This document shows, one piece after another, positions 420 through 15,423 of a stretch of 64,000 bases of DNA. How positions within the stretch are numbered: position 1 is the stretch's first letter; every line of letters begins with the position of its first letter. Below the pieces are notes generated by a model. That model saw only the letters and a list, made by a program, of their open reading frames with translations, had not been told where the DNA came from and made no database searches. Made by a program: the position numbers and the translations under genes. This DNA comes from SAR202 cluster bacterium (GTDB lineage Bacteria > Chloroflexota > Dehalococcoidia > Lucifugimonadales > Lucifugimonadaceae), in NCBI GenBank assembly GCA_016872495.1, contig VGZT01000001.1, positions 124,001-188,000 on the forward strand, given 5' to 3'.

Positions 420-839
420 ATGCTGGAAGACTATTTCCGGCAGTACGCGCTGATCGGAATTTTCGCTGCTGTCGCGGTCCTGGTGCCGACCGGCATGCTC
501 TTGGCTTCCTACCTCGCGTCGCTGGCCCGCATCCGGCCCACCCGGCCCCGGCCGCCCAACTGGCGCGAGTCGCCACCGCCGTACCTGAGGACCTACGAGT
601 CGGGACTGCAGCCGATCGGCGGCCCCTGGCGCCGGATCAACATCCGGTACTACGCGTTCGGCCTCCTGTTCGTCATCTTCGACATCGAGACCATCTTCCT
701 GTACCCGTGGGCGGTCGAGTACGGAGTCCTGTCCGCGCGGTTCGGCATCTTCGCGTTCATCGAGGCCCTGATCTTCATAGGGATCCTTGCTATCGGCTGG
801 GCTTATGCCTGGCGCAAGCGCGCAATGGAGTGGACGTAG
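420..839 (+). CDS. nuoA: NADH-quinone oxidoreductase subunit A
   Basis: Small membrane subunit of respiratory complex I (139 residues, the usual size), sitting at the junction of the membrane arm and the quinone site. Three hydrophobic helices are visible: near residues 8-35, ~75-98 and ~105-130. The family signature, ending in [11 protein letters not shown], is clear around residues 88-98, preceded by [13 protein letters not shown]. The ATG at 420 has a strong ribosome site (GGGGACGAGG) directly upstream. It is the first gene of a tightly packed operon whose members mostly overlap by 1-4 bases or lie a few bases apart. Confidence 0.96.
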
Positions 840-842
840 CCC

Positions 843-1481
843 TTGCTTGAACATCACGACCCCCTGGTCATAAGGCCGACGACCGAGAACCCGCTCTATC
901 GCCAGACGAGCGCGCTCGACATCGAGGAAGGCGCAATCATCAATCAGATGAAGGCGACCCACGTCGAGCAGTTCCCCGACCCGGTAATCGATGTGCCGGC
1001 CGAGTTCCGGCGCAACATCTTCGTCGGCAGCATCGACGCCCTGCTCAACTGGGGAAGGAAGTCGTCGGTCTTCCCGCTGATGATGGGCCTGGCCTGCTGC
1101 TCGTTCGAGATGATCGCAGCGGCGATGTCGCGGTTCGACCTCTCCCGCTTCGGGATGGAGGTCTTCAGGGCGACGCCCCGACAGGCCGACCTGATGATCG
1201 TTTCCGGCACGGTGACCTGGAAGATGGCGCCGGTCGTTCGCAGGCTCTACGATCAGATGGCCGAGCCGCGCTGGGTGATCTCGCAGGGTGTCTGCGCAAC
1301 GTCGGGCGGGCCCTATTTCGAGTCGTATTCGGTTGTCCCCGGCGTGAATAAGATCATTCCGGTCGACGTCTACGTCCCCGGCTGCCCGCCTCGTCCTGAC
1401 GCGCTCATTTACGGGATCATGCAACTGCACGAGAAGATCAAGCGATACAGCGTGGCGGGCCGGGCGGCGGGCCGGGAATGA
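843..1481 (+). CDS. nuoB: NADH-quinone oxidoreductase subunit B
   Basis: Peripheral-arm subunit that holds the last iron-sulfur cluster (N2), the direct electron donor to quinone. All four cluster cysteines are visible: the tandem pair in GLACCSFEM (C85, C86), C151 in [10 protein letters not shown] and C181 in [11 protein letters not shown]. The start is TTG at 843, three bases after the nuoA stop; 212 residues is at the long end for the family because of a ~45-residue N-terminal lead, so an internal start cannot be excluded. The stop overlaps the nuoC start as ATGA. Confidence 0.96.
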
Positions 1482-1924
1482 CCGCGCTCATCCCGGGCGA
1501 GCGGATCGCATCCATGATCGCCTCGATCGTGCCTGGTGCCGTTGCCGCCCAGGACCGAGGGGCGGCCTGGATCAGGGCGGAGACCTGGCCGGCGGTGGCG
1601 CGTGGTCTTCGCGACGGCGAGGAAACCGACTTCAAGTTCCTCAGCGCAGTAACCGGCGTTGATTACATCGATCACTATGAGGTCGTCTACCACCTGACCT
1701 CCTTCCGCCTGAACCACCGGGCCGTGGTCAAGGTCCGGTGCGGGGAGGGCAGGGAAGAGCCGGCGGTCCCGAGTTGTGTTCCGGTCTGGCGCGGCGCCGA
1801 CCTCCAGGAGCGCGAGGTCTATGACCTCATGGGGATCCGTTTCGACGGTCACCCGAACCTGAAGCGCGTGATGCTCTGGGAAGGCTTCCCGGGCCACCCG
1901 CACAGGAAGGACTTCCTCCGCTAG
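1478..1924 (+). CDS. nuoC: NADH-quinone oxidoreductase subunit C
   Basis: The 30-kDa subunit of the complex I peripheral arm, which packs against NuoD and NuoB and carries no cofactor. The family signature [18 protein letters not shown] appears in the C-terminal third, followed by a typical ending with PHRKDF. At 148 residues it is compact but covers the full conserved core, and it is not fused to nuoD as in some enterobacteria. The ATG overlaps the nuoB stop by four bases, indicating translational coupling. Confidence 0.95.
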
Positions 1925-1937
1925 TGGTGACCCGCTG

Positions 1938-3044
1938 ATGTCGATGCGCACCGAGCCCGTCACGGTAAACATCGGGCCGCACCATCCCAGCACGCACGGC
2001 GTTTTCAGGCTGCGCGTCACGTTCGACGGTGAAGTCATAGTCGACGTCGAACCGGTCTTCGGGTATCTGCACCGCGGCACCGAGAAGCTCGCCGAGGAGC
2101 GCACCTACGTTCAGTTCGTGACCCTGACCGATCGCATGGACTACGTAGCATCGATGACCAACAACCAGGGCTTTGTACTGGCGGTCGAGAAGCTGGCCGG
2201 GATCACGCCATCGCCACGCGGGGTCTGGTTGCGGATGATCGCCGCAGAGCTGCAGAGGATCGCGAGCCACCTGGTCGGCATGGGGTTCTTCCTGCAGGAC
2301 CTGGGCGCGTTCGCCACGCCGTTGATGTACGCCATGCGGGAGCGGGAGCGCATTCTCGATCTGTTCGAGATGCTGTGCGGCGCCCGCATCACGAACAGCT
2401 ACATGCGGCCGGGCGGCGTGTTCATGGACGCGCCAGAGGATTTCTGGCCGGCCGTAAACAGGTTCCTCGATGAAATGCCGGGGTATGTCGATGAGTACGA
2501 GTCGCTCATCTCCGGGAATGAAATTGTTCTCTCGCGCACCAAGGGCGTGGCCAGGGTCGAGCTCGACGCGCTGATCAACGCGTCGATCAGCGGGCCGATG
2601 CTGCGGGCGGCGGGCCTGGCCTGGGACCTGCGCAAGAAGCATCCGTACGAGTTTTACGATCGCGTTGAGTTCGACGTACCGCTGGCCCAGGAGAGCGACA
2701 ACTGGGCGCGCTACATCGTCCGGATCCAGGAGATGCGCGAGTCGGTCAAGATCGTCCGCCAGTGCGTCCAGCAGATCGAGCCCGGTCCGATCAGGCCCAA
2801 AGAGGTGCCGTTCCTGGTCCGACCGCCCGCCGGCGAGGTCTATTCGTCGATTGAAGGGCCCAAAGGGGAGCTCGGGTACTACATCGTCAGCGACGGTTCG
2901 ATCGCCCCATACCGCTGCAAGGTGCGAGCGCCGTCCTACATCAATCTGACGCTCCTGAAAGACATGCTGGTGGGATGGCGGGTCGCTGACATGATCGTCA
3001 CCTTCGGCAGTATCGACATCAACATGGGGGAGGTCGACCGGTGA
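1938..3044 (+). CDS. nuoD: NADH-quinone oxidoreductase subunit D
   Basis: The 49-kDa subunit; with NuoB it forms the quinone-binding cavity of complex I and is related to the large subunit of NiFe hydrogenases. The N-terminal GPHHPSTHGVFRL and HRGTEKL motifs contain the conserved histidines lining the quinone pocket, and TDRMDY supplies the conserved Asp/Tyr region. The C-terminus reads FGSIDINMGEVDR, where most bacterial homologues have a DPVLGEVDR-type ending, a mild divergence. Length (368 residues) is slightly under the usual ~400. It ends in a GTGA overlap with nuoH. Confidence 0.96.
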   Translation: MSMRTEPVTVNIGPHHPSTHGVFRLRVTFDGEVIVDVEPVFGYLHRGTEKLAEERTYVQFVTLTDRMDYVASMTNNQGFVLAVEKLAGITPSPRGVWLRMIAAELQRIASHLVGMGFFLQDLGAFATPLMYAMRERERILDLFEMLCGARITNSYMRPGGVFMDAPEDFWPAVNRFLDEMPGYVDEYESLISGNEIVLSRTKGVARVELDALINASISGPMLRAAGLAWDLRKKHPYEFYDRVEFDVPLAQESDNWARYIVRIQEMRESVKIVRQCVQQIEPGPIRPKEVPFLVRPPAGEVYSSIEGPKGELGYYIVSDGSIAPYRCKVRAPSYINLTLLKDMLVGWRVADMIVTFGSIDINMGEVDR

Positions 3045-4282
3045 CGTCGAGCTTCCTCGACAACGCCTTCTTCCGGAATATCTACTGCAACCTGGCGAGC
3101 AGCGACTCTGCGCGCTGTGCCGGCGGCGGGCCATTCGGCGACGGCCTGTTTCCTCCCGGCTGGGAGTGGTTCGCCTTCCTGGTGACCGCCTTCCTGACCG
3201 TGTTCGTCGTCATCAACGGCGCGTTGCTGGGGGTCAATGCCTACATCTGGGGCGAGCGACGCCTGATCGGCAGGATCCAGGGCCGTCCCGGGCCCAACCG
3301 CTGGGGACCATTCGGACTGCTGACCCCGGTCGCCGACTTGATCAAGATCCTGACCAAGGAAGACATCGTCCCGGCTGCGGCCGACCGGCTTCTGTTCTTC
3401 CTGGCGCCGTTCCTGATCGTGGTCCCGGTGCTGCTCGTGTTCGCGGTCGTCCCGTTCGGCAGCTCATCCTGGGTGGCCGATCTGAACATCGGCCTGCTGT
3501 ACGTGCTGGCAGTGCTCTCGGTCGAGTCATTCGCGCCGGTAATGGCCGGCTGGGGGTCGCAGAACCGCTACGCGATGTTCGGAGCCTTGCGCGCCGTCGC
3601 CCTCCTCGTCAGCTACGAGATCCCGATGGTCCTGTCGTTGTTAGGCGTCCTGATGATCGCCGGTTCCCTCTCGCTGGTGGACGTCGTGCATGCGCAGTCC
3701 GTGCCGTTCATCCTGGTACAGCCGCTCGGCTTCCTGGTCTTCTTCATCGGGACCGTAGCCGAGATCCAGCGTGCGCCGTTCGACCTGGCCGAGGCAGAGT
3801 CGGAACTGGTGGGCGGGTACCACACCGATTACAGCGGGATTCGCTGGGGCCTGTTCCAGGCTGGCGAGTTCCTGGCCACCATCGCCGGCGCCGCAATCAT
3901 CGTGACCGTGTTCCTGGGTGGCTGGCGCGGGCCCGACTTCCTGCCCTCGCATGCGTGGTTCTTCATCAAGCTGACCGGCGTCCTGGTCGTCATGACCTGG
4001 ATTCGCGGTACGCTCCCCCGGCTGCGCATTGACCAGGTGACGAGCTTCGCCTGGAAGGGGTTGCTGCCGCTGGCAGCGCTCAACGTCGTCCTCAGCGCTC
4101 TGCTGTCGTTGATCTGGCCCGCGCCCACGAACGGTGAGCTCTGGATCATGGTGGCGATCAATATGACCGTGGCAGCTGCGGCGCTAATTGTTCTTGGCCA
4201 GTTTGGTCCGAAGGCGGGCGAACGTCCGACTCCGGCCCCGGTATCGACCCTCAGGGAAGCCACACCGGGAGGAGGTAACTGA
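3041..4282 (+). CDS. nuoH: NADH-quinone oxidoreductase subunit H
   Basis: Membrane subunit that joins the two arms of complex I and forms part of the quinone entry channel. Multiple transmembrane helices are visible, with the conserved loop after helix 1 (ERRLIGRIQGRPGPNRWGP) and the glutamate-rich loop AEAESELVGGYHTDYSG. At 413 residues it is ~80 longer than common bacterial versions: there is a ~45-residue soluble N-terminal lead with two cysteines (C16 and C26) before the first helix, and a polar tail of ~30 residues. The start is GTG, overlapping the nuoD stop. Confidence 0.95.
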   Translation: MTSSFLDNAFFRNIYCNLASSDSARCAGGGPFGDGLFPPGWEWFAFLVTAFLTVFVVINGALLGVNAYIWGERRLIGRIQGRPGPNRWGPFGLLTPVADLIKILTKEDIVPAAADRLLFFLAPFLIVVPVLLVFAVVPFGSSSWVADLNIGLLYVLAVLSVESFAPVMAGWGSQNRYAMFGALRAVALLVSYEIPMVLSLLGVLMIAGSLSLVDVVHAQSVPFILVQPLGFLVFFIGTVAEIQRAPFDLAEAESELVGGYHTDYSGIRWGLFQAGEFLATIAGAAIIVTVFLGGWRGPDFLPSHAWFFIKLTGVLVVMTWIRGTLPRLRIDQVTSFAWKGLLPLAALNVVLSALLSLIWPAPTNGELWIMVAINMTVAAAALIVLGQFGPKAGERPTPAPVSTLREATPGGGN

Positions 4283-4953
4283 TGTACGGACTGGGGATCC
4301 TCAAGGGCTTCGGGGTCACCGCCCTTAACGCGTTTCGTTCACCCTTCACGGTTGAATACCCGGACCGCCGTGTCGGGCTGCCGGGGCTTGCCCGGTCGGC
4401 CGGGATAAACCCGCTGGCCTTTGTGCTGAAGCGGCCCAAGGACGCTCTCAAGGCGGTGCTCGGCCTGGCGAAGATTCCGGCCCGATCCCAGCAGCACTCG
4501 CGCTTCCGCGGCCAGGATTTCACCTGGTACGTGGAACGCTGCACCGGGTGCGCCAGCTGCGCAAAGCTGTGCCCGCTGGGGATCATCAAGATCGTCACGG
4601 ATCCAAGCGGGCGGCAGACGCAGGAGGGCGAGGTCTACGACATCGAGACGTTCGATATCGATCTCGCTCGCTGCATGGCCTGCGGCATCTGCGTAGAAGT
4701 CTGTCCGTACGACGCCCTTCACATGGGCAGCGGATTTGAGCGGGCACGCTACGGGTTCCCGAACCTGCTCATCACGGTCGATGAGCTGAAGAAGGCCCCG
4801 AAACGCCCGAGCACCTGGTTCAGGCCGCAGCTGGAGGAGCGGGGGTACCACCCGCACAAGAGCGGCCAGGCGGACTGGCGGCTGGTCGGCCGCCACGAGC
4901 GCCCGACCGCGGGCCAACTCAAGCGCAACTGGGTGGACGATCGAGCGAAGTGA
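4282..4953 (+). CDS. nuoI: NADH-quinone oxidoreductase subunit I
   Basis: Ferredoxin-like subunit carrying the two [4Fe-4S] clusters (N6a and N6b) that pass electrons towards NuoB. Two full motifs are present: CTGCASCAKLCPLG (about residues 91-104) and CMACGICVEVCPYDA (about 132-146). At 223 residues it has a longer N-terminal lead and C-terminal tail than the minimal ~160-residue type. The ATG shares one base with the nuoH stop (TGATG) behind the ribosome site GGAGG at the end of nuoH. Confidence 0.95.
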   Translation: MYGLGILKGFGVTALNAFRSPFTVEYPDRRVGLPGLARSAGINPLAFVLKRPKDALKAVLGLAKIPARSQQHSRFRGQDFTWYVERCTGCASCAKLCPLGIIKIVTDPSGRQTQEGEVYDIETFDIDLARCMACGICVEVCPYDALHMGSGFERARYGFPNLLITVDELKKAPKRPSTWFRPQLEERGYHPHKSGQADWRLVGRHERPTAGQLKRNWVDDRAK

Positions 4954-5588
4954 CTGAATCCTCGGCCCTGGTCGACGTCATCTTCTGGGTGGGCGCCATC
5001 GCTGCGATCGGCGCCTCCGTAATGGTGGTTGCGGCGCGCGACGTCCTGAAGTCGGCGGTGTTCCTCGCGGCCTCGTTCCTGGCCGTTGGCGGGATCTACG
5101 TGCTGCTGCGAGCCGAATTCCTGGCCGCCGTCCAGGTCCTGATCTACGTCGGCGCAGTCTCGATCCTGATCATATTCACGATCATGATGGTGCGGCAGAT
5201 CGCCGGGGGAAACCGCTCAGCGGGCCCCTTCTACGTCGTCACGGGTGCGATCGCTGCGACGCTCGTGTCCCTTGCGGTGATCTATGCCGCCTACAACACC
5301 GACTGGTCTGACCTCGACGCGGCGGCCGCATCTGATCAGCGTGTCGAGGCGGCACTGACCGGGAGCTACGCGTCACAGCCCGCGCCGGGGAACCCGAAGG
5401 TCGACATCATCGTCGCCCCGGCTACCGCTGCAGCCAACTCCCATCCCGGCGTGTTCGAGCGCAGCACCGGCAACCTGGGACAGCTGTTTATCCGTGACTA
5501 TGTGCTCGCCTTCGAGATCATTTCCCTCGTCCTGCTGGCAGCTCTGATCGGCGCGCTCGTGCTCGCCAGGGAGCGGCGGCCGACATGA
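4950..5588 (+). CDS. nuoJ: NADH-quinone oxidoreductase subunit J
   Basis: Membrane subunit of the proton-pumping arm. The first ~100 residues form three closely spaced helices with the conserved FLAASFLAVGGIYVLLRAEFLAA-type core (region ~45-70), followed by VQVLIYVGAVSILIIF. A soluble loop of ~60 residues (about 115-180) separates this from a last helix near the C-terminus (FEIISLVLLAALIGALVL). GTG start, GTGA overlap with nuoI. Confidence 0.93.
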   Translation: MTESSALVDVIFWVGAIAAIGASVMVVAARDVLKSAVFLAASFLAVGGIYVLLRAEFLAAVQVLIYVGAVSILIIFTIMMVRQIAGGNRSAGPFYVVTGAIAATLVSLAVIYAAYNTDWSDLDAAAASDQRVEAALTGSYASQPAPGNPKVDIIVAPATAAANSHPGVFERSTGNLGQLFIRDYVLAFEIISLVLLAALIGALVLARERRPT

Positions 5589-5938
5589 ACCTCGAGAACG
5601 TCCTCCTGGTATCCGCCGTGATCTTCGGGATCGGGCTGTTCGGCGTTCTGACGCGGCGCAATGTCATCGTCGTCTTGATGAGCATTGAATTGATGTTTAA
5701 CGCCGTCAACCTGGCGGCAATAGCGTTCGCCCGATTCACCGTGCCGTACTCCCTGGCCGGGGGGCCGGTCTCGGTTACCTCGGACGCGGTGCGCCAGGTG
5801 CTGACCGGCCAGGCATTCGCCGTGTTCGTCATAGGCGTGGCTGCAGCAGAAGTGACGCTTGGCCTCGCGCTTGCCATGGCTATTTTCCGCCGACGTGAGA
5901 CCGTCGAAGTCACCGACCTGACGACGGCAAGGGGATAG
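5585..5938 (+). CDS. nuoK: NADH-quinone oxidoreductase subunit K
   Basis: Short three-helix antiporter-related (MrpC-like) subunit of the complex I membrane arm. The helix-2 segment VIVVLMSIELMFNAVNLA carries the conserved membrane glutamate needed for proton pumping, and a second conserved glutamate appears in helix 3 (AAAEVTLGLALAMAIFR). At 117 residues it has a short extra C-terminal tail over the usual ~100. The ATG overlaps the nuoJ stop. Confidence 0.94.
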   Translation: MNLENVLLVSAVIFGIGLFGVLTRRNVIVVLMSIELMFNAVNLAAIAFARFTVPYSLAGGPVSVTSDAVRQVLTGQAFAVFVIGVAAAEVTLGLALAMAIFRRRETVEVTDLTTARG

Positions 5939-5943
5939 GCCAG

Positions 5944-6138
5944 ATGTGGGTTGATTACAAGAAGGCGCCGAACCTGTTGATCGCCGAGATGTGGAAGGAC
6001 CTGCTGGAAGGCGAGGGGTTGCCGACCAAGATCATCCCGGAGGGCGACATCCTCGACTGGGCCGAGCGCGTGCCGTTCCGAATCCTCGTGCCGCGGGGGC
6101 GCGAGCACGTTGCCGACGAGATCCTGAGGAAGCTGTAG
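5944..6138 (+). CDS. DUF2007-like small protein inside the nuo operon
   Basis: A 64-residue soluble protein encoded between nuoK and nuoL, 5 bases after the nuoK stop and 3 bases before the nuoL start, so it is certainly co-transcribed with complex I. The pattern APNLLIAEMWKDLLEGEG, then a short segment and RILVPRGREHVADEIL, resembles the DUF2007 'signal-transducing' fold, a ferredoxin-like domain found alone or fused to zinc ribbons; this is a pattern match from memory and was not searched. No cysteines, no membrane helix. It could be an assembly or regulatory factor for complex I, but nothing in the sequence proves that. Confidence 0.75.
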   Translation: MWVDYKKAPNLLIAEMWKDLLEGEGLPTKIIPEGDILDWAERVPFRILVPRGREHVADEILRKL

Positions 6139-6141
6139 GCG

Positions 6142-8202
6142 ATGACTGAGGCTCTTGCCTGGCTGATCATCCTGCTACCGCTGGCGTCGTTTGTCGCCGT
6201 GGCGCTGGTGATCCGCCCGTTCTTCAACCGGTGGTCGATCGCCGCCGGCTGGGTGACGATCGCCGCAATTGCCGGCTCTTTCGTGCTCTCTCTCGTCGCA
6301 GCGGCGGCCGTTTTCAACGATGGATCTATCGCCTATCCGTCCCGCCAGTGGATCGCCGCGCCGGGGCTCGTCATACCCTTCGGGATCCTCCTCGACCCGC
6401 TCACCGCCGTGATGCTGGTCGTCGCATCGGGCGTGAGCCTCCTCGTGCAGATCTACTCGCAGGGATACATGCGGGGCGATCGCGGCTATGCCCGCTACTT
6501 CGCCTACATGTCCCTGTTCACGGCTTCGATGCTTGGCCTGGTGCTCGCCCGATCCATCGTCCAGATGTTCTTCTTCTGGGAGCTGGTCGGGCTGTGTTCG
6601 TATCTGCTGATCGGCTTCTGGTTCACCCGTCCGGCCGCAGCGGCCGCAGCCAAGAAGGCTTTCCTGGTCACGCGACTCGGCGACTTCGGCTTCCTGCTGG
6701 CGGTCCTGTATCTCTTCTTCCAGGGTGGCGAACTGCTCGACGTGCCCACGTTGTACGAAGCGATCCATGCCGGGCTGATTGCGACCTCGGTGGCGACCTG
6801 GATAGGACTGGGGATCTTCGCCGGCGCAGTTGGCAAGTCGGCGCAGTTCCCACTGCACACCTGGTTGCCGGACGCCATGGAAGGGCCAACCCCGGTGAGC
6901 GCCCTCATACATGCCGCGACGATGGTCGCCGCGGGCGTTTTCCTGGTGGCGCGCTTCTTCCCGCTCATCGAGCTTTCCGGCACCACGATGGACGTCATCG
7001 CGCTGATCGGCGGGTTCACCGCGGTCTTCGCAGCCTCGATGGGACTGGTCGCCAACGACATAAAGAGGGTGATGGCCTATTCCACGGTCAGCCAGCTTGG
7101 CTACATGATGCTGGCGCTCGGCGTCGGCGCATACATACCGGCGATCTTTCACCTGTTCACGCACGCCTGGTTCAAGGCGCTGCTCTTCCTGAGCGCGGGC
7201 AGCGTGAACCATGCCGCGGGTACGTTCGACATGCGTTACATGGGTGGCCTGCGCAAGTACATGCCGGCAACCTATGCCGTGATGATCATTGGCGGCCTGA
7301 GCCTCGCTGGAATCTTTCCGCTTGCAGGATTCTGGAGCAAGGATGAAGTCCTCGTGGGCGCGCTCGAAAACGGCTCGCCGGTCGGCATCATGACCTTCCT
7401 GCTCGGCCTGATCGCGGTCCTGATGACCGCGTTCTACATGTTCCGAGCGGTATTCATGACCTTCCACGGCAGCTGGCGCGGAGGCGCCGACGCCGAGGCC
7501 GCCGCCAACGCCAGCGCCCACCCCGCGCCCCAGGCAGCCGGCGGCCACGCAGGCGATGGGCACGGCGACGGGCACGGCGACGGGCACGGCGACGAGCACG
7601 GGAGCCATGGCGGCGTCCACCTTGCGGAATCTCCGCTAGTGATGGTGTTGCCGATGGGGATCCTGGCCGCCGCTGCAATCTTCGCCGGCATCCTGGTCAA
7701 CCCGCCGACCGCGCTGGGCCCGATCGAAAAGCACTTTTTCGGGGAGTATGCGGCGCACAACAAGCCTGTCTTCCCGACCCACGAAGACGCGGTCAGGGCG
7801 GGAGCCGAACCGCACTTCAACCTGGTAATTGCGCTGGCGTCGACCGCGCTGGCCGTTGCCGGCATCGGACTCGCCTACACCTTCTATGGTCGGGGCCAGG
7901 CGTCTGTGTCGCTGCCCGCGCCCCTCGCAAAGGTCCATCGTGTGCTCACTCGCAAGTACTACTTCGATGAGCTGTACGAGCGAGTGCTCGTGAACAACCT
8001 CTTCTACCGGCGATTCAGCGCCGCGTTCGAGTGGATCGACACCAACTGGATCGACGGCTTCAACTACCGGGTGACCCTCTGGACCGAACGCTCGGGGCGA
8101 GCCCTGACGCATCTCCAGAACGGCCAGATCCAGGCATACGGGACGGCTATCGCACTCGGCGTGCTCCTGACGCTCGCCGCTTACTTCGTATGGGGGGCCT
8201 GA
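6142..8202 (+). CDS. nuoL: NADH-quinone oxidoreductase subunit L
   Basis: The distal antiporter-like subunit of complex I (686 residues), with more than a dozen hydrophobic helices. The conserved proton-channel residues lie in FFFWELVGLCSYLLIGFW (helix-5 glutamate) and GKSAQFPLHTWLPDAMEGP (helix-7 lysine), with HAATMVAAGVFLVARF following. A soluble insert at about residues 446-492 is Ala/Pro- and then His/Gly/Asp-rich, encoded by tandem 12-bp repeats. The C-terminal quarter fits the long lateral amphipathic helix that clamps the membrane arm. It starts 3 bases after the small DUF2007-like gene. Confidence 0.96.
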   Translation: MTEALAWLIILLPLASFVAVALVIRPFFNRWSIAAGWVTIAAIAGSFVLSLVAAAAVFNDGSIAYPSRQWIAAPGLVIPFGILLDPLTAVMLVVASGVSLLVQIYSQGYMRGDRGYARYFAYMSLFTASMLGLVLARSIVQMFFFWELVGLCSYLLIGFWFTRPAAAAAAKKAFLVTRLGDFGFLLAVLYLFFQGGELLDVPTLYEAIHAGLIATSVATWIGLGIFAGAVGKSAQFPLHTWLPDAMEGPTPVSALIHAATMVAAGVFLVARFFPLIELSGTTMDVIALIGGFTAVFAASMGLVANDIKRVMAYSTVSQLGYMMLALGVGAYIPAIFHLFTHAWFKALLFLSAGSVNHAAGTFDMRYMGGLRKYMPATYAVMIIGGLSLAGIFPLAGFWSKDEVLVGALENGSPVGIMTFLLGLIAVLMTAFYMFRAVFMTFHGSWRGGADAEAAANASAHPAPQAAGGHAGDGHGDGHGDGHGDEHGSHGGVHLAESPLVMVLPMGILAAAAIFAGILVNPPTALGPIEKHFFGEYAAHNKPVFPTHEDAVRAGAEPHFNLVIALASTALAVAGIGLAYTFYGRGQASVSLPAPLAKVHRVLTRKYYFDELYERVLVNNLFYRRFSAAFEWIDTNWIDGFNYRVTLWTERSGRALTHLQNGQIQAYGTAIALGVLLTLAAYFVWGA
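7558..7599 (+). repeat. 12-bp tandem repeat encoding a His-Gly-Asp tract in NuoL
   Basis: Three perfect copies of GGGCACGGCGAC (7558-7569, 7570-7581, 7582-7593) and a diverged half copy. Being in-frame (12 bases is 4 codons), the repeat can change length without breaking nuoL. It encodes a Gly-His-Gly-Asp repeat in the soluble insert, a composition that could bind metal ions. Confidence 0.9.
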
Positions 8203-8206
8203 TCCG

Positions 8207-9724
8207 ATGTTCTCGGGCTTCCTGACGACGATCGTCTTCCTGCCAGCCGCGGCCGCACTGGTCGTTGCGATGCTGAGACGGGAACAGCACATCAGGTGGT
8301 TTGCGATTGGCGCGACCGTCGTTGAACTGGTGCTGACCGTCGTCCTTTTCCTCGCCTACGACCGGACCGAAGGCGGTGTCCAGTTCATCGATCGCATCGG
8401 GCAGTGGATTCCGATCGCGGGTTTCCGGGCGGAGTACCTGCTGGGCGTCGACGGGCTCAGCCTCCCGCTGGTCCTGCTGACGGGTCTCCTGGGCGCAGCT
8501 GCCGCATTCGCGTCGTGGCGGATCTCGGTGCGGGTGAAGGAGTACTTCATCTGGCTGCTGATCCTGCAGACCGCAGTGACCGGGGTGTTTGTCTCGCTCG
8601 ACTTCCTGCTCTTCTTTATCTTCTGGGAGATCGAGCTCCTACCTATGTACTTCCTGATTTCGATCTGGGGGAGCGGACGGCCGCAGTATTCGGCGCTGAA
8701 GTTCGTGATATTCACGCTGACGGGCAGCGCGTTCATGCTGGTCGGGATTTTGGCGCTTTACCTGACCGCTGACATCAACACGTTCGCAATGGTCTCGATC
8801 CCCGAAGCCGGCATCGTCGGCATCCCGGAGCTGATCCCCGGCGCCCGGCTTCTGCTGCCTGCCGGGCTGATCTTCGCCTTCCTTTTCATAGCGTTCGCCG
8901 TCAAGCTGCCGTTGTGGCCGCTCCACAACTGGCTCCCGGACGCCCATACCGATGCGCCCACCGCGGTCAGCGTCATGCTCGCGGGTGTCCTCTTGAAGAT
9001 GGGCGGCTACGGGCTGCTGCGCGTGGCGGTCGGCATGTTCCAGGAGAGCCCCGGCTTCCAGATCGACCAGGTCGCGTGGCTGCTTGCGGCGCTCGCCGCG
9101 GTGAGCGTCCTCTACGGCGCGGTACTCACGCTGCGGCAGACCGATCTGAAACGGCTGATCGCCTACAGCAGCGTGAGTCACATGGGGTATGTCGTGCTGG
9201 GCGTCTCGTCGATCGTGGCGGTCGCCGACGTTGGCACCGGCGGGCTCAACGGCGCGGCGATGCAGCTGTTCACGCACGGAGTGATCACCGGCCTGCTCTT
9301 CCTGCTGGTGGGCATGGCTTACGAGCGGACGCATACGAGGTACATCCCTGACCTTGGCGGACTGGCAGGCAAGATGCCCTTCATCGCCACCGGATTCCTG
9401 CTCGCCGGCCTCGCCTCCCTTGGGCTACCCGGGCTTGGCGGCTTTGTCGCCGAGATCATGGTGTTCCTGGGCACGTTCCCCGTCTGGGGGTGGGCGACGG
9501 TCCTCGGCGCCTTCGGCGTGGTGCTGGCGGCCGGCTATATCCTGTGGATGGTCCAGCGAGTCTTTTTCGGCCCGCCGCGACAGCACCTGGGCCATCTCCA
9601 TGACGCACACTGGGTCGACATGATTCCGGTGGTCGGCCTTGCGATCCCGATCGTCCTGATCGGCATCTATCCCGGCTGGCTGGTCGACGTCTTCAAGATG
9701 GGTATCGAGGCAACCCTACGCTGA
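8207..9724 (+). CDS. nuoM: NADH-quinone oxidoreductase subunit M
   Basis: Central antiporter-like subunit of the complex I membrane arm (505 residues, ~14 helices). The helix-5 glutamate is in LFFIFWEIELLPMYFLISIWG and the channel lysine in FAVKLPLWPLHNWLPDAH, both family signatures. GVLLKMGGYGLLRV and YSSVSHMGYVVLGV are further conserved stretches. The gene starts 4 bases after nuoL and overlaps nuoN by one base. Confidence 0.96.
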   Translation: MFSGFLTTIVFLPAAAALVVAMLRREQHIRWFAIGATVVELVLTVVLFLAYDRTEGGVQFIDRIGQWIPIAGFRAEYLLGVDGLSLPLVLLTGLLGAAAAFASWRISVRVKEYFIWLLILQTAVTGVFVSLDFLLFFIFWEIELLPMYFLISIWGSGRPQYSALKFVIFTLTGSAFMLVGILALYLTADINTFAMVSIPEAGIVGIPELIPGARLLLPAGLIFAFLFIAFAVKLPLWPLHNWLPDAHTDAPTAVSVMLAGVLLKMGGYGLLRVAVGMFQESPGFQIDQVAWLLAALAAVSVLYGAVLTLRQTDLKRLIAYSSVSHMGYVVLGVSSIVAVADVGTGGLNGAAMQLFTHGVITGLLFLLVGMAYERTHTRYIPDLGGLAGKMPFIATGFLLAGLASLGLPGLGGFVAEIMVFLGTFPVWGWATVLGAFGVVLAAGYILWMVQRVFFGPPRQHLGHLHDAHWVDMIPVVGLAIPIVLIGIYPGWLVDVFKMGIEATLR

Positions 9725-11232
9725 TGGGCGCACACGACCTCTGGCTACTCTCTCCACAGCTCGCCATGGCTGCGCTTGCGTGCACCGCCCTGGTGGTCGA
9801 CCTGGCCACGGGCAGGTCGAAGCTGGTCCTGTGGCTCTCGCTGATCGGGCTAGTGATACCGGCGGCCCTGAGCATCGCGCTGTGGGCAGCAAACCCCGCT
9901 GACACGCTGGTCTTCTTCGGCGCGGCGAGCGTGGACCGCTTCTCGCTCTTTTTCACGCTCTTGTTCACGGGCGTTGCCGCGGCCGTAATCGTCTCGGCCG
10001 AAAAGTACGCCAGCCGATTCCAGGAACAACGCGGCGAGTTCGTCGGGTTGATTCTCGCCTCTACCACCGGAATGATGCTCCTCGCTTCGGCCAACGAGCT
10101 GATCACGATCTACGTTTCGCTGGAACTGACCGCGCTCCCCGTGGCGGCGTTGCTGGCGTTTCTGCGCGAGGACCGCTCAGCCGAGGCCGGCATGAAATTC
10201 CTGATCCTGAGCGGCGTAAGCTCGGCCTTGCTGCTCTACGGGCTGGTTTTCATCTTCGGCTTCACCGGAACGACCAGGCTCGACGAGATCTTCGCCAGGA
10301 TTGGCGACCTCCAGGCCTCGGGTGGTTTCGATTCCACGGTGCCCTTCGGTAGCTACGGGTTGCTGCTGGGCATCGCGCTGGCGATCTCCGGATTTGCCTT
10401 CAAGCTGGCAGCGGCGCCGTTCCAGATGTGGGTGCCGGATGCGTACGAGGGCGGCCCCACTCCGGTCGTAGCATTCCTTTCGGTCGCCAGCAAGGCCGCC
10501 GGCTTCGCTGTGGTCCTGCGGATCCTGTACTCCGCCTTTGGATCGCCCGAGCTGGCGGTCGAGTGGTCGGCTCTCTTCGCGGTCCTCGCGGTCGTCACGA
10601 TGACGCTCGGGAACCTCATGGCGCTGCCGCAGAAGAACGTGAAGCGGCTGCTCGGGTACAGCACGATCTCGCAGGCCGGCTTCATGCTCATCGGGCTGGC
10701 GGCCGTATCGGCCAACACCTCGGCCGGCAGCCTGGTCGCGGGGCCCCAGAGCGTCGTCTTCTACCTGGCGGGCTATGCTTTTACCAATCTGGCGGTATTC
10801 CTCGGCGTCATCGCGATCACGAATCGGACCAATGACAATACGATCGCCGGGTTTGCCGGCATGGGGCGGCGGGCGCCCGTAACGGCACTGCTGCTGGCGA
10901 TCGGGCTCATCTCCCTCCTGGGGCTGCCCCCGACGGTCGGATTCATGAGCAAGATCTTCGTATTCAACGCCGCGGTCAATTCCGGGCTGGCGTGGCTCGC
11001 CCTCGCCGGCGTCCTGAACAGCGTGATCTCCGCCTACTACTACCTTCGGGTGATCCGGGCCATGTATATGGAAGCGCCCACCAGCGATGAGCGGATCACG
11101 CTCGATCCGTCCCTGGGTGTCGCAACCGGCATCGCCGCGTTTGGGGCGGTCTTGTTCGGCGTGGCTCCCTGGTTCCTGCTGCGTGCGGCCGAGATCGCCG
11201 TCCGTTCGCTGTCCGGCGTCGCCGGGAGCTAG
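9724..11232 (+). CDS. nuoN: NADH-quinone oxidoreductase subunit N
   Basis: Third antiporter-like subunit (502 residues). It shows the helix-5 region ITIYVSLELTALPVAALL with its conserved glutamate, and FAFKLAAAPFQMWVPDAYEG with the channel lysine, then YSTISQAGFMLIGLA. It is the last complex I gene here. The operon order is A-B-C-D-H-I-J-K-x-L-M-N; nuoE, nuoF and nuoG, which form the NADH-oxidising module, are absent from the operon and from the whole window. Confidence 0.96.
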   Translation: MGAHDLWLLSPQLAMAALACTALVVDLATGRSKLVLWLSLIGLVIPAALSIALWAANPADTLVFFGAASVDRFSLFFTLLFTGVAAAVIVSAEKYASRFQEQRGEFVGLILASTTGMMLLASANELITIYVSLELTALPVAALLAFLREDRSAEAGMKFLILSGVSSALLLYGLVFIFGFTGTTRLDEIFARIGDLQASGGFDSTVPFGSYGLLLGIALAISGFAFKLAAAPFQMWVPDAYEGGPTPVVAFLSVASKAAGFAVVLRILYSAFGSPELAVEWSALFAVLAVVTMTLGNLMALPQKNVKRLLGYSTISQAGFMLIGLAAVSANTSAGSLVAGPQSVVFYLAGYAFTNLAVFLGVIAITNRTNDNTIAGFAGMGRRAPVTALLLAIGLISLLGLPPTVGFMSKIFVFNAAVNSGLAWLALAGVLNSVISAYYYLRVIRAMYMEAPTSDERITLDPSLGVATGIAAFGAVLFGVAPWFLLRAAEIAVRSLSGVAGS

Positions 11233-11282: not shown

Positions 11283-12152
11283 ATGCCGCGCGTCCGCAAG
11301 GTAGCCGTGATCTACCACGGCCTGGTGCCGGAAGCCGGCGTACTCGCGCGGAGACTGGTCCAGCGATTCCGGACCGCGGCGCAATGGACCGCGATGGACG
11401 CCGAAGCCGCGCGTAAAGCGAAGGGCCTCGCCGACTGCGAGCTGTTCGTGACCATCGGCGGCGACGGCACGATATTGCGGGCGATGCACATCGCCGCCCC
11501 GCTCGCGGTCCCGGTGCTCGGTTTGAACATGGGCCGCGTTGGATTCATGTCGGAAGTCGATGCCGAAAACGCGCTCGATGAGATCGAGTGGTACCTGGAC
11601 GGCAACGCACGGATCGAAGAACGCGCAATGCTCCAGGTCGAATCCGCCGCGCTGCGGGGGGGGCCTCAGCACGCCCTCAACGACGTCACGATCGGGCGGG
11701 GCAGCGCGCCCAGGATAGTGAACCTGCGAACCCACATCAACGGTGTACACCTGACCAACTACCGGTCGGACGCGCTCGTCCTTGCCACCGCCACCGGATC
11801 GACCGGATACAGCCTGGCGCTGGGCGGCCCGGTGATGGACCCGGAAAGCGACGACATCCTGCTGAAGCCGGTCGCCGCGCACATGAGCCTCCAGGGCGGA
11901 TTCGTGCTGCCGGTGAGTACCGTCATCGAGGTCAAATTCGAGGGTCCGGAGGCGGGCGTTCTCAGTGTCGACGGATACGTCGACATGCCGTTGCGGCCGG
12001 GCCAGGTGGTCACCGTGCGGACCAGCCCGTACCGGGCAAGGTTCCTGAGGCGGCATTCGACCGCCGAGTTCTACGCCTCGGTAACGCGCCGGCTGGGGAT
12101 GCGACAGGAATCGCTGCCGAGGCGGCGGCAGGGGCGGCAAGCGCGGGCCTGA
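11283..12152 (+). CDS. nadK: NAD kinase
   Basis: ATP- or polyphosphate-dependent kinase converting NAD to NADP; cytoplasmic. The two diagnostic motifs are present: TIGGDGTILRAMH (GGDGT, phosphate and metal binding, about residues 57-69) and ATGSTGYSLALGGPVM (about 169-184). GRVGFMSEVD and the C-terminal beta domain with VSVDGYVDMPL-like residues also fit. Length 289 is typical. The ATG immediately follows the stop of a 15-codon frame behind a GGGGAGG site, so it is probably co-expressed with the end of the nuo operon, linking NADP supply to respiration genes. Confidence 0.95.
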   Translation: MPRVRKVAVIYHGLVPEAGVLARRLVQRFRTAAQWTAMDAEAARKAKGLADCELFVTIGGDGTILRAMHIAAPLAVPVLGLNMGRVGFMSEVDAENALDEIEWYLDGNARIEERAMLQVESAALRGGPQHALNDVTIGRGSAPRIVNLRTHINGVHLTNYRSDALVLATATGSTGYSLALGGPVMDPESDDILLKPVAAHMSLQGGFVLPVSTVIEVKFEGPEAGVLSVDGYVDMPLRPGQVVTVRTSPYRARFLRRHSTAEFYASVTRRLGMRQESLPRRRQGRQARA

Positions 12153-12171: not shown

Positions 12172-12747
12172 ATGATGCAATCGATGTTGTCGACCAGGAC
12201 TCTGGCTAGTCGCCGCCCCTTTAACGGGCAGATTCTTCAAGTGCGTGTCGACACCATTCAACTGGGGGACCATGCCCCCGTCGAGCGCGAGATCGTCGAA
12301 CACCCCGGCTCGATCGTCCTGGTCCCCGTGACCGAGCGATCGACCGTGCTGCTGGTCCGCCAGTGGCGCCACCCGGTCAGAGAAGCGCTGCTCGAAGCTC
12401 CCGCGGGTCACATCGACCCGGGCGAGGCACCCGAGGCAGCGGCACAGCGAGAGCTCCAGGAGGAGACCGGGTTCCGGGCCGCGCGACTTCTCAAGCTCTC
12501 GGAGTTCTGGATCGCGCCTGGCTGGTGCACGGAGTACATGTATGCCTACCTTGCGACGGGGTTGTCCCCGTCAAGGCTGGCGCAGGATGTCGACGAAGAC
12601 GTGCAGGTTGTAGAGACTGCGCTTGCTGAGATCCCGGAACTGATCAGGACAGGCGTGTTGAAGGACAACAAGTCGATCAGCGCGTTGCTGATCGCTGCGC
12701 ATATCTACCGGGACCAGCTGTCAGATCCGACGAAGCGTTCGGCCTGA
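12172..12747 (+). CDS. Nudix hydrolase, probable ADP-ribose pyrophosphatase
   Basis: Hydrolyses a nucleoside diphosphate linked to another group, most likely ADP-ribose, to AMP and ribose 5-phosphate. The complete Nudix box is visible: GHIDPGEAPEAAAQRELQEE then TGF (G-x5-E-x7-REL-x-EE-x-G), about residues 80-102. The N-terminal beta strands with VLLVRQWRHPV and the downstream EFWIAPGWCTEYMYAYLA match the ADP-ribose pyrophosphatase subgroup. 191 residues; an alternative ATG lies 12 bases inside. It starts 19 bases after nadK and probably shares its transcript, which is sensible for NAD turnover. Confidence 0.88.
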   Translation: MMQSMLSTRTLASRRPFNGQILQVRVDTIQLGDHAPVEREIVEHPGSIVLVPVTERSTVLLVRQWRHPVREALLEAPAGHIDPGEAPEAAAQRELQEETGFRAARLLKLSEFWIAPGWCTEYMYAYLATGLSPSRLAQDVDEDVQVVETALAEIPELIRTGVLKDNKSISALLIAAHIYRDQLSDPTKRSA

Positions 12748-12790: not shown

Positions 12791-14470
12791 ATGTTCGAGC
12801 ACGACGTACTGATAATCGGCGCCGGACTGGCGGGCATGCGTGCCGCCGTGGAGGCCGTCAACCGTGGGGCGAACGCCGCGGTCATCACGAAGGTGCACCC
12901 GGTTCGAAGCCATTCGAACGCGGCGCAGGGCGGGATCAACGCGGCGCTGACTGATCGAGGCGACGATTGGACCGACCACGCCCTGGAAACCGTGCGCGGA
13001 AGCGACTACCTCGCCGACCAGGATGCGGTTGAGGTCATGTGTAGCGAGGCAGGCGCCGCGCTGATCGAGCTCGAGCACATGGGGGTCGTTTTCAGCCGCG
13101 ACGAGCACGGGAAGCTCGGGACCCGGCGATTTGGTGGGCAGAAGGCGGCCCGGACCTTCTTCGTGGGCGCAATCACCGGCCAGGCCATCCTGCACGTGCT
13201 GTACGAGCAGCTGATCAAGGCCAACGTGCGCGTCTACGAAGAGTGGTTCGTCACCTCGTTGATCGTGGAGGACGGCGTGTGCCGGGGTGCGGTGACGCTG
13301 GACATACGCACCGGCGAGTTGCACACGATCCGGGCGAAGGCGGTCATCAACTGCGCCGGCGGGGCAGGGCGGGTATACGAGCCGTCCACCAACGCGCTGA
13401 TTTGCACCGGCGACGGCTATGCGCTCGCCTACCGGGCGGGCGCCCCGCTGATGGACATGGAGATGGTCCAGTACCACCCCACGACGCTGGCTTCCAACGG
13501 GGTCCTGATCTCCGAGGCTGCCCGGGGCGAGGGAGGCTACCTCCTCAACTCCAAGGGTGACCGCTTCATGCTGCGGTACGCGCCGGAGTACAAGGAGCTG
13601 GCCTCACGCGATGTCGTTTCACGCTCGGAACAGACCGAGATCAACGAAGGGCGCGGGATCGACGGCACCGTGCTGCTGGACGTCCGCCACCTGGGACGCA
13701 AGGTGGTCGAAGAGAAGCTCGGCTACCTCCAGGAGGTTGCCCACGACTTCATGGGCATCGACCTCGCCGAGCAGCCGATCCCGGTCAGGCCGGGCATGCA
13801 CTACATGATGGGTGGTATCAAGACCGATATCAACGGCGCAACCAGCGTACCGGGCCTTTACGCGGCAGGGGAGGTCGCCAACGTCAGCGTGCACGGCGGG
13901 AACCGCCTCGGTGCCAACTCGCTGCTGGACACGGTGGTGTTCGGACGCCGGTCCGCGCTCGCAGCGATCGAGTACGGCAAGAGCGCAGGCGCGGGTTCCA
14001 GGAATGAGGACCTGCTCGCCTCGGAAAAGAAGCGGATCCAGGCCCTGCTGGACCGGCCAAAGGGGCTACGTAGCGCGTCCGTGCGCCGCGAACTAGCGGA
14101 GACGATGCACAGCCACGTGGCGGTCTTCCGTGACCAGCAGGGGATGGAGCGCGCCGCGGCCAAGGTGAAGGAACTGAAGAGCGCCTACGGCAAGGTGGCG
14201 GTCGATGACAAGGGAAAGGTATTCAACACCGACCTGATCTTCGCCCTCGAGCTGCGCAACGTCATCGACACTGCGGAGGCGATCTGCGCTTCGGCCCTTA
14301 CCCGCAAAGAGAGCCGGGGAGCCCACTACCGAGTCGACATGAAGAAGCGTGACGATGCCAACTGGCTGAAGCACATCCTGGTGAGGCAGAGCGCCGCCGA
14401 CGGCGATCCGAAGATCGATACAGCCCCGGTGACCATTACGCGGTGGCAGCCGGTGGAAAGGAAGTACTGA
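12791..14470 (+). CDS. sdhA: Succinate dehydrogenase / fumarate reductase flavoprotein subunit
   Basis: Oxidises succinate to fumarate (or the reverse) with covalent FAD. N-terminal Rossmann motif GAGLAGMRAAVEA, then HPVRSHSNAAQGGINAAL with the histidine expected to carry FAD (SHSxAAQGG). The active-site region HPTTLASNGVLISEAARGEGG and the C-terminal GGNRLGANSLLDTVVFGRR are both intact. 559 residues. It is the first of three coupled genes (sdhA-sdhB-sdhE, each overlapping the next by one base). The start at 12791 follows GGAGCGGGGG. Confidence 0.95.
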   Translation: MFEHDVLIIGAGLAGMRAAVEAVNRGANAAVITKVHPVRSHSNAAQGGINAALTDRGDDWTDHALETVRGSDYLADQDAVEVMCSEAGAALIELEHMGVVFSRDEHGKLGTRRFGGQKAARTFFVGAITGQAILHVLYEQLIKANVRVYEEWFVTSLIVEDGVCRGAVTLDIRTGELHTIRAKAVINCAGGAGRVYEPSTNALICTGDGYALAYRAGAPLMDMEMVQYHPTTLASNGVLISEAARGEGGYLLNSKGDRFMLRYAPEYKELASRDVVSRSEQTEINEGRGIDGTVLLDVRHLGRKVVEEKLGYLQEVAHDFMGIDLAEQPIPVRPGMHYMMGGIKTDINGATSVPGLYAAGEVANVSVHGGNRLGANSLLDTVVFGRRSALAAIEYGKSAGAGSRNEDLLASEKKRIQALLDRPKGLRSASVRRELAETMHSHVAVFRDQQGMERAAAKVKELKSAYGKVAVDDKGKVFNTDLIFALELRNVIDTAEAICASALTRKESRGAHYRVDMKKRDDANWLKHILVRQSAADGDPKIDTAPVTITRWQPVERKY

Positions 14471-15423
14471 TGCAGGCGACGGTCCGAATCCGAAGGTTCA
14501 ACCCTGAGCAACCCGCCAATAACGGGAAGTTCCAGGAGTTCAAGCTCGACGTGCCTGACAGCACCACCGTCCTGGACGCGCTGATCAAGGTGCGCGAGGA
14601 CGTCGACGGCACGCTCGGCGTTCGATGCTCCTGCCGGGCTTCGATCTGCGGTTCGTGCGGCATGCGGGTCAACGGCCAGGCGAAACTGGCCTGCAAGACC
14701 AAGATCGCCGACGTGTCCAGGCACGGCGAGCCAATCACGGTCGAGCCGATGGGCAACATGCCGGTCGTCAAGGACCTGATCACCGACATGAAGGTCTTCT
14801 GGGACAAGCTGCGCCAGGTGGAGCCCTACCTGCAACCCGAAGGTCCGGCTCCGAAAGGCGAGTACATCGCGTCCGACGAGTCCATGAATCACCTCGTTGG
14901 CGTGATGAACTGCATCATGTGTGGTGCCTGCGTGTCGGACTGCACCGTGCTGGCCGTCGACAAGAACTTCATCGCGCCTGCTGCGCTGGCCAAGGCCTAC
15001 CGGTTCGTGGCCGACCCGCGCGACTCTCGGACCAGCCAGCGCCTTGGTGTCCTCAACGAGTCGGGCGGCGTCTGGGACTGCGTACGGTGCATGTACTGCG
15101 TAGAGGTCTGCCCGAAGGGCGTCGCGCCGATGGAGCGCATCATGAAGATGCGCGACCTCGCCATGGAAGCCGGCTACAACAACACGCCGGGGGCGCGCCA
15201 CACCGAGTCGTTCGCAAGTTCGGTCAAGAGTGACGGGCTGCTTAATGAAACGAAGCTTGCGATTGACAGCACCGGGATCTTCAACATCCCGGGTCAGCTG
15301 GCGCAAGCGCCGGTCGCGGTCCGGGCGCTGTTGCGGGGCAAGCTTCCGCCGCTGTTTGGCCACAAGATCAAAGCCCGGAAGCAGATCAAGCGGGTGTTCG
15401 AGAAAGTCGAGGGCCAGGAGTAG
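14470..15423 (+). CDS. sdhB: Succinate dehydrogenase iron-sulfur subunit (type E)
   Basis: Electron-transfer subunit between the flavoprotein and quinone. The [2Fe-2S] ligands are C55, C60, C63 and C75 (CRASICGSC and the later LAC). The second centre is CIMCGACVSDC. The third motif reads CVRCMYCVEVCPKG: a fourth cysteine stands where classic SdhB has Ile/Val/Ser in its [3Fe-4S] motif, so a second [4Fe-4S] cluster is expected, as known for type-E enzymes of Sulfolobus/Acidianus. The ATG at 14470 overlaps the sdhA stop and has GGAAAGG upstream. 317 residues; the ~80-residue C-terminal extension is HdrC-like. Confidence 0.94.
   Translation: MQATVRIRRFNPEQPANNGKFQEFKLDVPDSTTVLDALIKVREDVDGTLGVRCSCRASICGSCGMRVNGQAKLACKTKIADVSRHGEPITVEPMGNMPVVKDLITDMKVFWDKLRQVEPYLQPEGPAPKGEYIASDESMNHLVGVMNCIMCGACVSDCTVLAVDKNFIAPAALAKAYRFVADPRDSRTSQRLGVLNESGGVWDCVRCMYCVEVCPKGVAPMERIMKMRDLAMEAGYNNTPGARHTESFASSVKSDGLLNETKLAIDSTGIFNIPGQLAQAPVAVRALLRGKLPPLFGHKIKARKQIKRVFEKVEGQE

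Follow-up and report, generated by a model that had tools for sequence, protein, structure and literature searches.

A small conserved gene between nuoK and nuoL of Dehalococcoidia with a very likely role in complex I

The 64-codon gene (here called x) that lies between nuoK and nuoL in a SAR202 genome very likely has a dedicated role in complex I. This conclusion is drawn from its co-location with complex I genes, its dependence on their presence, its specificity for one of two complex I isoforms in one genome and the constraint on its amino acid sequence. By a narrow balance of the evidence we regard the product as a small, cytoplasmic accessory subunit that belongs to one complex I type, common in Dehalococcoidia.

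In the window, the 64,000-nucleotide stretch of contig VGZT01000001.1 that was analysed, the operon has the order nuoA-B-C-D-H-I-J-K-[x]-L-M-N and contains no nuoE, nuoF or nuoG (Table 1). The order nuoA-B-C-D-H-I is kept in relatives. Gene x is separated from the end of nuoK (5938) by 5 bases and from the start of nuoL (6142) by 3 bases, exactly as given in the preliminary description, and its 3' end contains the SD-like sequence GAGGAAG. The product, MWVDYKKAPNLLIAEMWKDLLEGEGLPTKIIPEGDILDWAERVPFRILVPRGREHVADEILRKL, has 64 residues with a GRAVY value of -0.21 and a pI of 5.3. Computation from the sequence also bore out the earlier remark that it has neither cysteines nor a membrane helix.

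Table 1. Features of the nuo operon and of gene x (window coordinates)
Feature	Position	Strand	Basis or remark
nuoA	420-839	+	sequence; upstream part of operon
nuoB	843-1481	+	sequence; upstream part of operon
nuoC	1478-1924	+	sequence; upstream part of operon
nuoD	1938-3044	+	sequence; upstream part of operon
nuoH	3041-4282	+	sequence; upstream part of operon
nuoI	4282-4953	+	sequence; upstream part of operon
nuoJ	4950-5588	+	sequence, conserved order
nuoK	5585-5938	+	upstream neighbour of x
x	5944-6138	+	64 codons, ATG to TAG; divergent DUF2007 relative, predicted soluble
x, N-terminal part	5944-5994	+	strand 1 and start of helix 1; W2, A14 and W17, each kept in 60 or more of the 61 family members
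x, C-terminal motif V-P-x-x-[KR]-x-H-V-x-x-E-[IV]-L-R-K	6088-6135	+	end of strand 3 and helix 2
nuoL	6142-8202	+	downstream neighbour of x
nuoM	8207-9724	+	downstream part of operon
nuoN	9724-11232	+	downstream part of operon

Directly after nuoN the window carries an NAD kinase-like gene (11283-12152). A homologue also trails nuoN in three relatives (L236, L237 and L238), which suggests that this gene belongs to the nuo operon. It is followed by genes recognized by eye as a NUDIX-type hydrolase (12172-12747) and as succinate dehydrogenase-like (12791-14470 and 14443-15423); a complex II-like set may therefore adjoin complex I in the window.

Full-length orthologues of x (E < 1e-19) were found in 58 of the 60 genomes compared at the level of the order, the copies other than the window's being 59-95% identical. 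All 30 order-level loci that were fetched have the arrangement nuoJ-nuoK-x-nuoL. Among 80 loci from named genomes (SAR202 and other Dehalococcoidia, including the complete genome of Candidatus Lucifugimonas marina JH1073, CP046147) 79 have nuoK-x-nuoL, and in the one exception only 93 bases of contig precede x. The same arrangement was seen on contig SMWD01000135.1 (L109, 2563-2754), which is labelled Gammaproteobacteria and carries an x 78% identical to the window's; this is probably a mislabelled or misbinned Chloroflexota contig. A search of plasmids for x gave no match.

Gene x is under strong purifying selection. Its Ka/Ks was about 0.03-0.10, whereas in the same relatives nuoK gave about 0.08-0.24 and nuoL 0.14-0.25, with nuoJ also higher; pN/pS of x was 0.05-0.18, and the synonymous sites were heavily diverged. 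The full-length orthologues and the Ka/Ks values rule out a chance ORF: x is a real gene. Mean identity to the window over the 80 named loci was 82% for x, compared with 55% for NuoK, 56% for NuoL and 41% for NuoJ. In the two relatives for which the whole operon was compared, x was 83 and 91% identical to the window's protein, NuoB 74 and 72%, NuoD 71 and 74%, and the other subunits 42-66%. Within the order, none of the compared complex I core subunits is as well conserved as x. In a class-wide alignment of 61 members M1 and A14 are invariant, and W2, W17, E24, V49, P50, H55, V56, E59 and R62 nearly so. All 61 sequences have K or R at position 53; H55 is present in 57, E59 in 60 and R62 in 58.

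The profile built from the order matched 145 of the 197 genomes of the class. Sixty class loci, in most cases a single one for each family, were fetched. In 52 of them x is flanked by nuoK as well as nuoL, and in six one of these neighbours is present and the contig then ends. At L155 x itself stands at a contig end, and another contig of the same genome (L156) has nuoK-x. In genome G185 an x-like gene (L148, 2523-2711; also L210) has no nuo gene within about 3-7 kb, nuoK being located elsewhere in the genome. The survey of nuoK-x-nuoL that had been proposed as a check found the co-location conserved in the order and in much of the class, so that x is neither absent nor unconserved at this place in close relatives.

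Dependence on complex I genes was seen in the same 197 genomes, of which 172 contain the nuoK family. Each of the 136 strong x carriers has nuoK, and x occurs in none of the 25 genomes without nuoK. Nine weak matches were set aside before this count because they proved, or were considered, to lie away from nuo; this step is a matter of judgement. Weak matches in family f41 were rejected as x; they are ordinary DUF2007 proteins encoded beside dnaE-like and radC-like genes. The NuoF family PF10589, taken as a marker of the NADH module, gave no discrimination: with NuoF paralogues being common, it matched 185 of the 197 genomes whether or not they had x.

A profile scan at full sensitivity found no x in 15 Dehalococcoidia nuo loci (L216-L226 and L228-L231), in which nuoK and nuoL are adjacent; L215, which ends after nuoK, and L227, which is no nuo locus, were left out of this count. 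Since nuo operons without x exist, x is not essential to every Dehalococcoidia complex I. The x-less loci come mostly from families f41 (which includes single-contig genomes of 1.4-1.5 Mb), f46, f72, f87 and f95, and from lineages that mostly lack COX1. The heme-copper oxidase family (COX1) was present in 110 of the 136 x carriers versus 7 of the 36 other nuoK-positive genomes (Fisher p about 1e-11, phylogeny being ignored). In a NuoL tree the x-less groups sit among x carriers, with about four changes, which suggests that x was lost several times; this tree is weakly rooted, its L227 row is not NuoL and L219 forms a long branch. An 11-subunit Nuo that lacks NuoEFG is known from cultured Dehalococcoidia (PMC4959651); it shares with the window operon the class and the set A-B-C-D-H-I-J-K-L-M-N, but in the x-less members of the class nuoK and nuoL adjoin.

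In other classes of Chloroflexota the x profile finds x-like genes with E values of 1e-13 to 1e-20. One locus (L200) has the order DRTGG/AAA - NuoE - NuoF - NuoG - x - nuoA-B-C-D-H-I-J-K-L-M, five (L203, L204, L206, L207 and L208) have x - DRTGG/AAA - NuoE - NuoF - NuoG, and three (L201, L202 and L209) have x - DRTGG - NuoE - NuoF. Taken with nuoK-x-nuoL, these arrangements tie x to complex I or to its NADH module. The window genome has a NuoE/F/G-like set on another contig, unlinked to the nuoA-N operon, and its DRTGG gene also lies elsewhere, unlinked to nuo. The set (L234, 3275-8540) is alone on its contig, C3; its G part is a molybdopterin-domain protein, and the set could serve either complex I or a formate dehydrogenase. 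In one genome, G117, x is isoform-specific: of its two nuo operons one (L240) contains x and the other (L253) is a complete A-N set without x. In the former operon nuoB and nuoI are missing from their usual places, nuoB being located elsewhere in several such genomes (L242-L248).

The preliminary description had reasoned that a conserved insertion at this place would point to a complex I accessory or regulator specific to the lineage. An accessory or a regulator is still the best reading, because the position is conserved in the order and much of the class and x carriers always have nuoK. This reading is refined in two points: x-like genes occur beyond the K-L place in other Chloroflexota, beside DRTGG and NuoEFG, and x is absent from some nuo-bearing Dehalococcoidia.

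The earlier label 'DUF2007-like' is appropriate for a distant resemblance, the window protein scoring 14.3 bits against DUF2007 (PF09413), below the Pfam gathering cut-off of 25.7. The weak match is nearly full-length, residues 10-63 aligning to positions 9-64 of the 66 in the profile. In the class-wide set 43 of 61 members match DUF2007 at E<=1 (best 1.8e-5), and of six more x or x-like proteins, tested one by one, some scored 17.5-20.8 bits and the rest did not match. Among the proteins retrieved by the x profile, however, are some that do exceed the DUF2007 cut-off (L211, L212 and L214). From the scores below the cut-off and the retrieval of true DUF2007 proteins we therefore consider x to be a divergent relative of DUF2007 rather than a certified member. 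No NCBIfam model matches x, and none of the complex I families in Pfam and NCBIfam does, so homology to the core subunits NuoA-N was not found. A profile search of all PDB chains gave no sequence relative of x and, up to E = 1, neither a complex I chain nor any of the bacterial accessory subunits with solved structures (Nqo15, Nqo16 and others).

An AlphaFold2 model built with 74 sequences (mean pLDDT 91.7, pTM 0.76) predicts a beta-alpha-beta-beta-alpha fold. Foldseek matches of the model to the PDB were weak, none having an E value below 0.05; the best were protein-docking domains of the PrgK/EscJ type, with TM-scores to 0.77. The fold is shared with 2hfv (RPA1041; probability 0.90, TM-score 0.69 to the model), which we take to be the solved structure of the Pfam family DUF2007. 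The predicted x protein resembles that family in length and fold, but it has its own W2/W17 and K/R-x-H-V-x-x-E-x-x-R-K motif and is tied to complex I loci, whereas the ordinary DUF2007 relatives of the phylum have other genomic surroundings, such as a dnaE-like gene on one side and a radC-like gene on the other. PII and PII-like proteins (GlnK, PstA and SbtB) are similar in having a small alpha/beta fold; with TM-scores of 0.38-0.51 of the query and about 0.3-0.4 of the target they fell short of 0.5 over the chain, and membership of x in the PII fold was rejected. The matched chains, of about 82-113 residues, are also longer than x with its 64.

Judged by its position, x would be co-transcribed with NuoK and NuoL in the nuoA-N operon. 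Its product is predicted to fold into a compact domain without cofactor residues, and would most likely be a docking or clamping piece with a stabilizing role. W2, W17 and the helix 2 residues K/R53-H55-E59-R62-K63 are candidates for contacts with core subunits. The likeliest binding site would be in the peripheral arm or where that arm meets the NADH module, which is encoded separately; this site is preferred because the x-like genes of other Chloroflexota adjoin NuoE/F/G; the link to the NADH module is drawn from gene order in those other classes only. The genetic linkage to complex I genes and the dependence on them are those expected of an accessory subunit. There is a precedent in Thermus, where Nqo16 is an accessory subunit wedged into the peripheral arm of complex I (PMC8762328). 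Like Nqo16 and Nqo15, x would be a small soluble accessory protein in the complex I of one bacterial lineage (PMC8762328), but it is encoded inside the nuo operon and has no sequence match to any complex I chain in the PDB.

Linkage, the restriction of x to genomes with nuoK, and isoform specificity would also fit a dedicated assembly factor that attaches to NuoL/NuoK or to intermediates of the peripheral arm during biogenesis and is released once the enzyme is complete, and a small soluble protein with a docking-type fold and no cofactor site matches such a role. We consider it unlikely, since a constraint above that of the compared core subunits within the order better suits a permanent buried interface. 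Moreover, the genes of assembly factors are often located outside the operon. We favour the accessory subunit on two grounds: a protein without cofactors that is so strongly constrained would suit a permanent interface, and there are bacterial precedents. That x was caught by chance in a conserved operon, as a housekeeping gene of unrelated function or as a spacer for translational coupling, seems highly improbable: the gaps are tight and nuoL could make use of the GAGGAAG near the 3' end of x, but amino acid selection, dependence on nuoK and linkage to complex I in other arrangements speak against both versions, and a spacer would not keep W2, W17, K53, H55 and R62.

A regulator or sensor, in which a DUF2007 signal-transduction-like domain tunes the electron input or the activity of complex I (in other Chloroflexota jointly with the adjacent DRTGG/AAA nucleotide-binding protein), is a doubtful reading of the same data. 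It is kept alive by the DRTGG neighbour in other classes, where x-DRTGG-NuoE-NuoF is a conserved unit, and draws on the distant kinship to DUF2007, a family named 'putative prokaryotic signal transducing protein', and on the weak structural similarity to PII, PstA and SbtB chains. The signalling role of DUF2007 is a label only, however, and no paper testing a function of the family was found; the TM-scores to the PII-like chains, which are longer than x, are only about 0.4-0.5, and the DRTGG gene of the window genome is not linked to nuo. A more elaborate version, to which we give little credence, would make x, as a docking protein derived from DUF2007, the complex I-bound half of a Chloroflexota control system that gates NADH input or complex I activity by nucleotide or redox state together with a nucleotide-binding DRTGG/AAA partner, whose gene adjoins NuoEFG in other classes, and that was lost in relatives mostly without COX1.

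No published description of x was found in the open-licence literature. SAR202 bacteria occur widely in the ocean, and strains of them are now in culture (PMC10444878), which makes the question of x testable. Complex I ranks with the most thoroughly studied respiratory enzymes; a new protein linked to it in much of a bacterial class, and surpassing the compared core subunits in conservation within the SAR202 order, would add a lineage-specific layer of construction or control to the bacterial enzyme. A role of x in complex I would also give DUF2007 its first concrete process.
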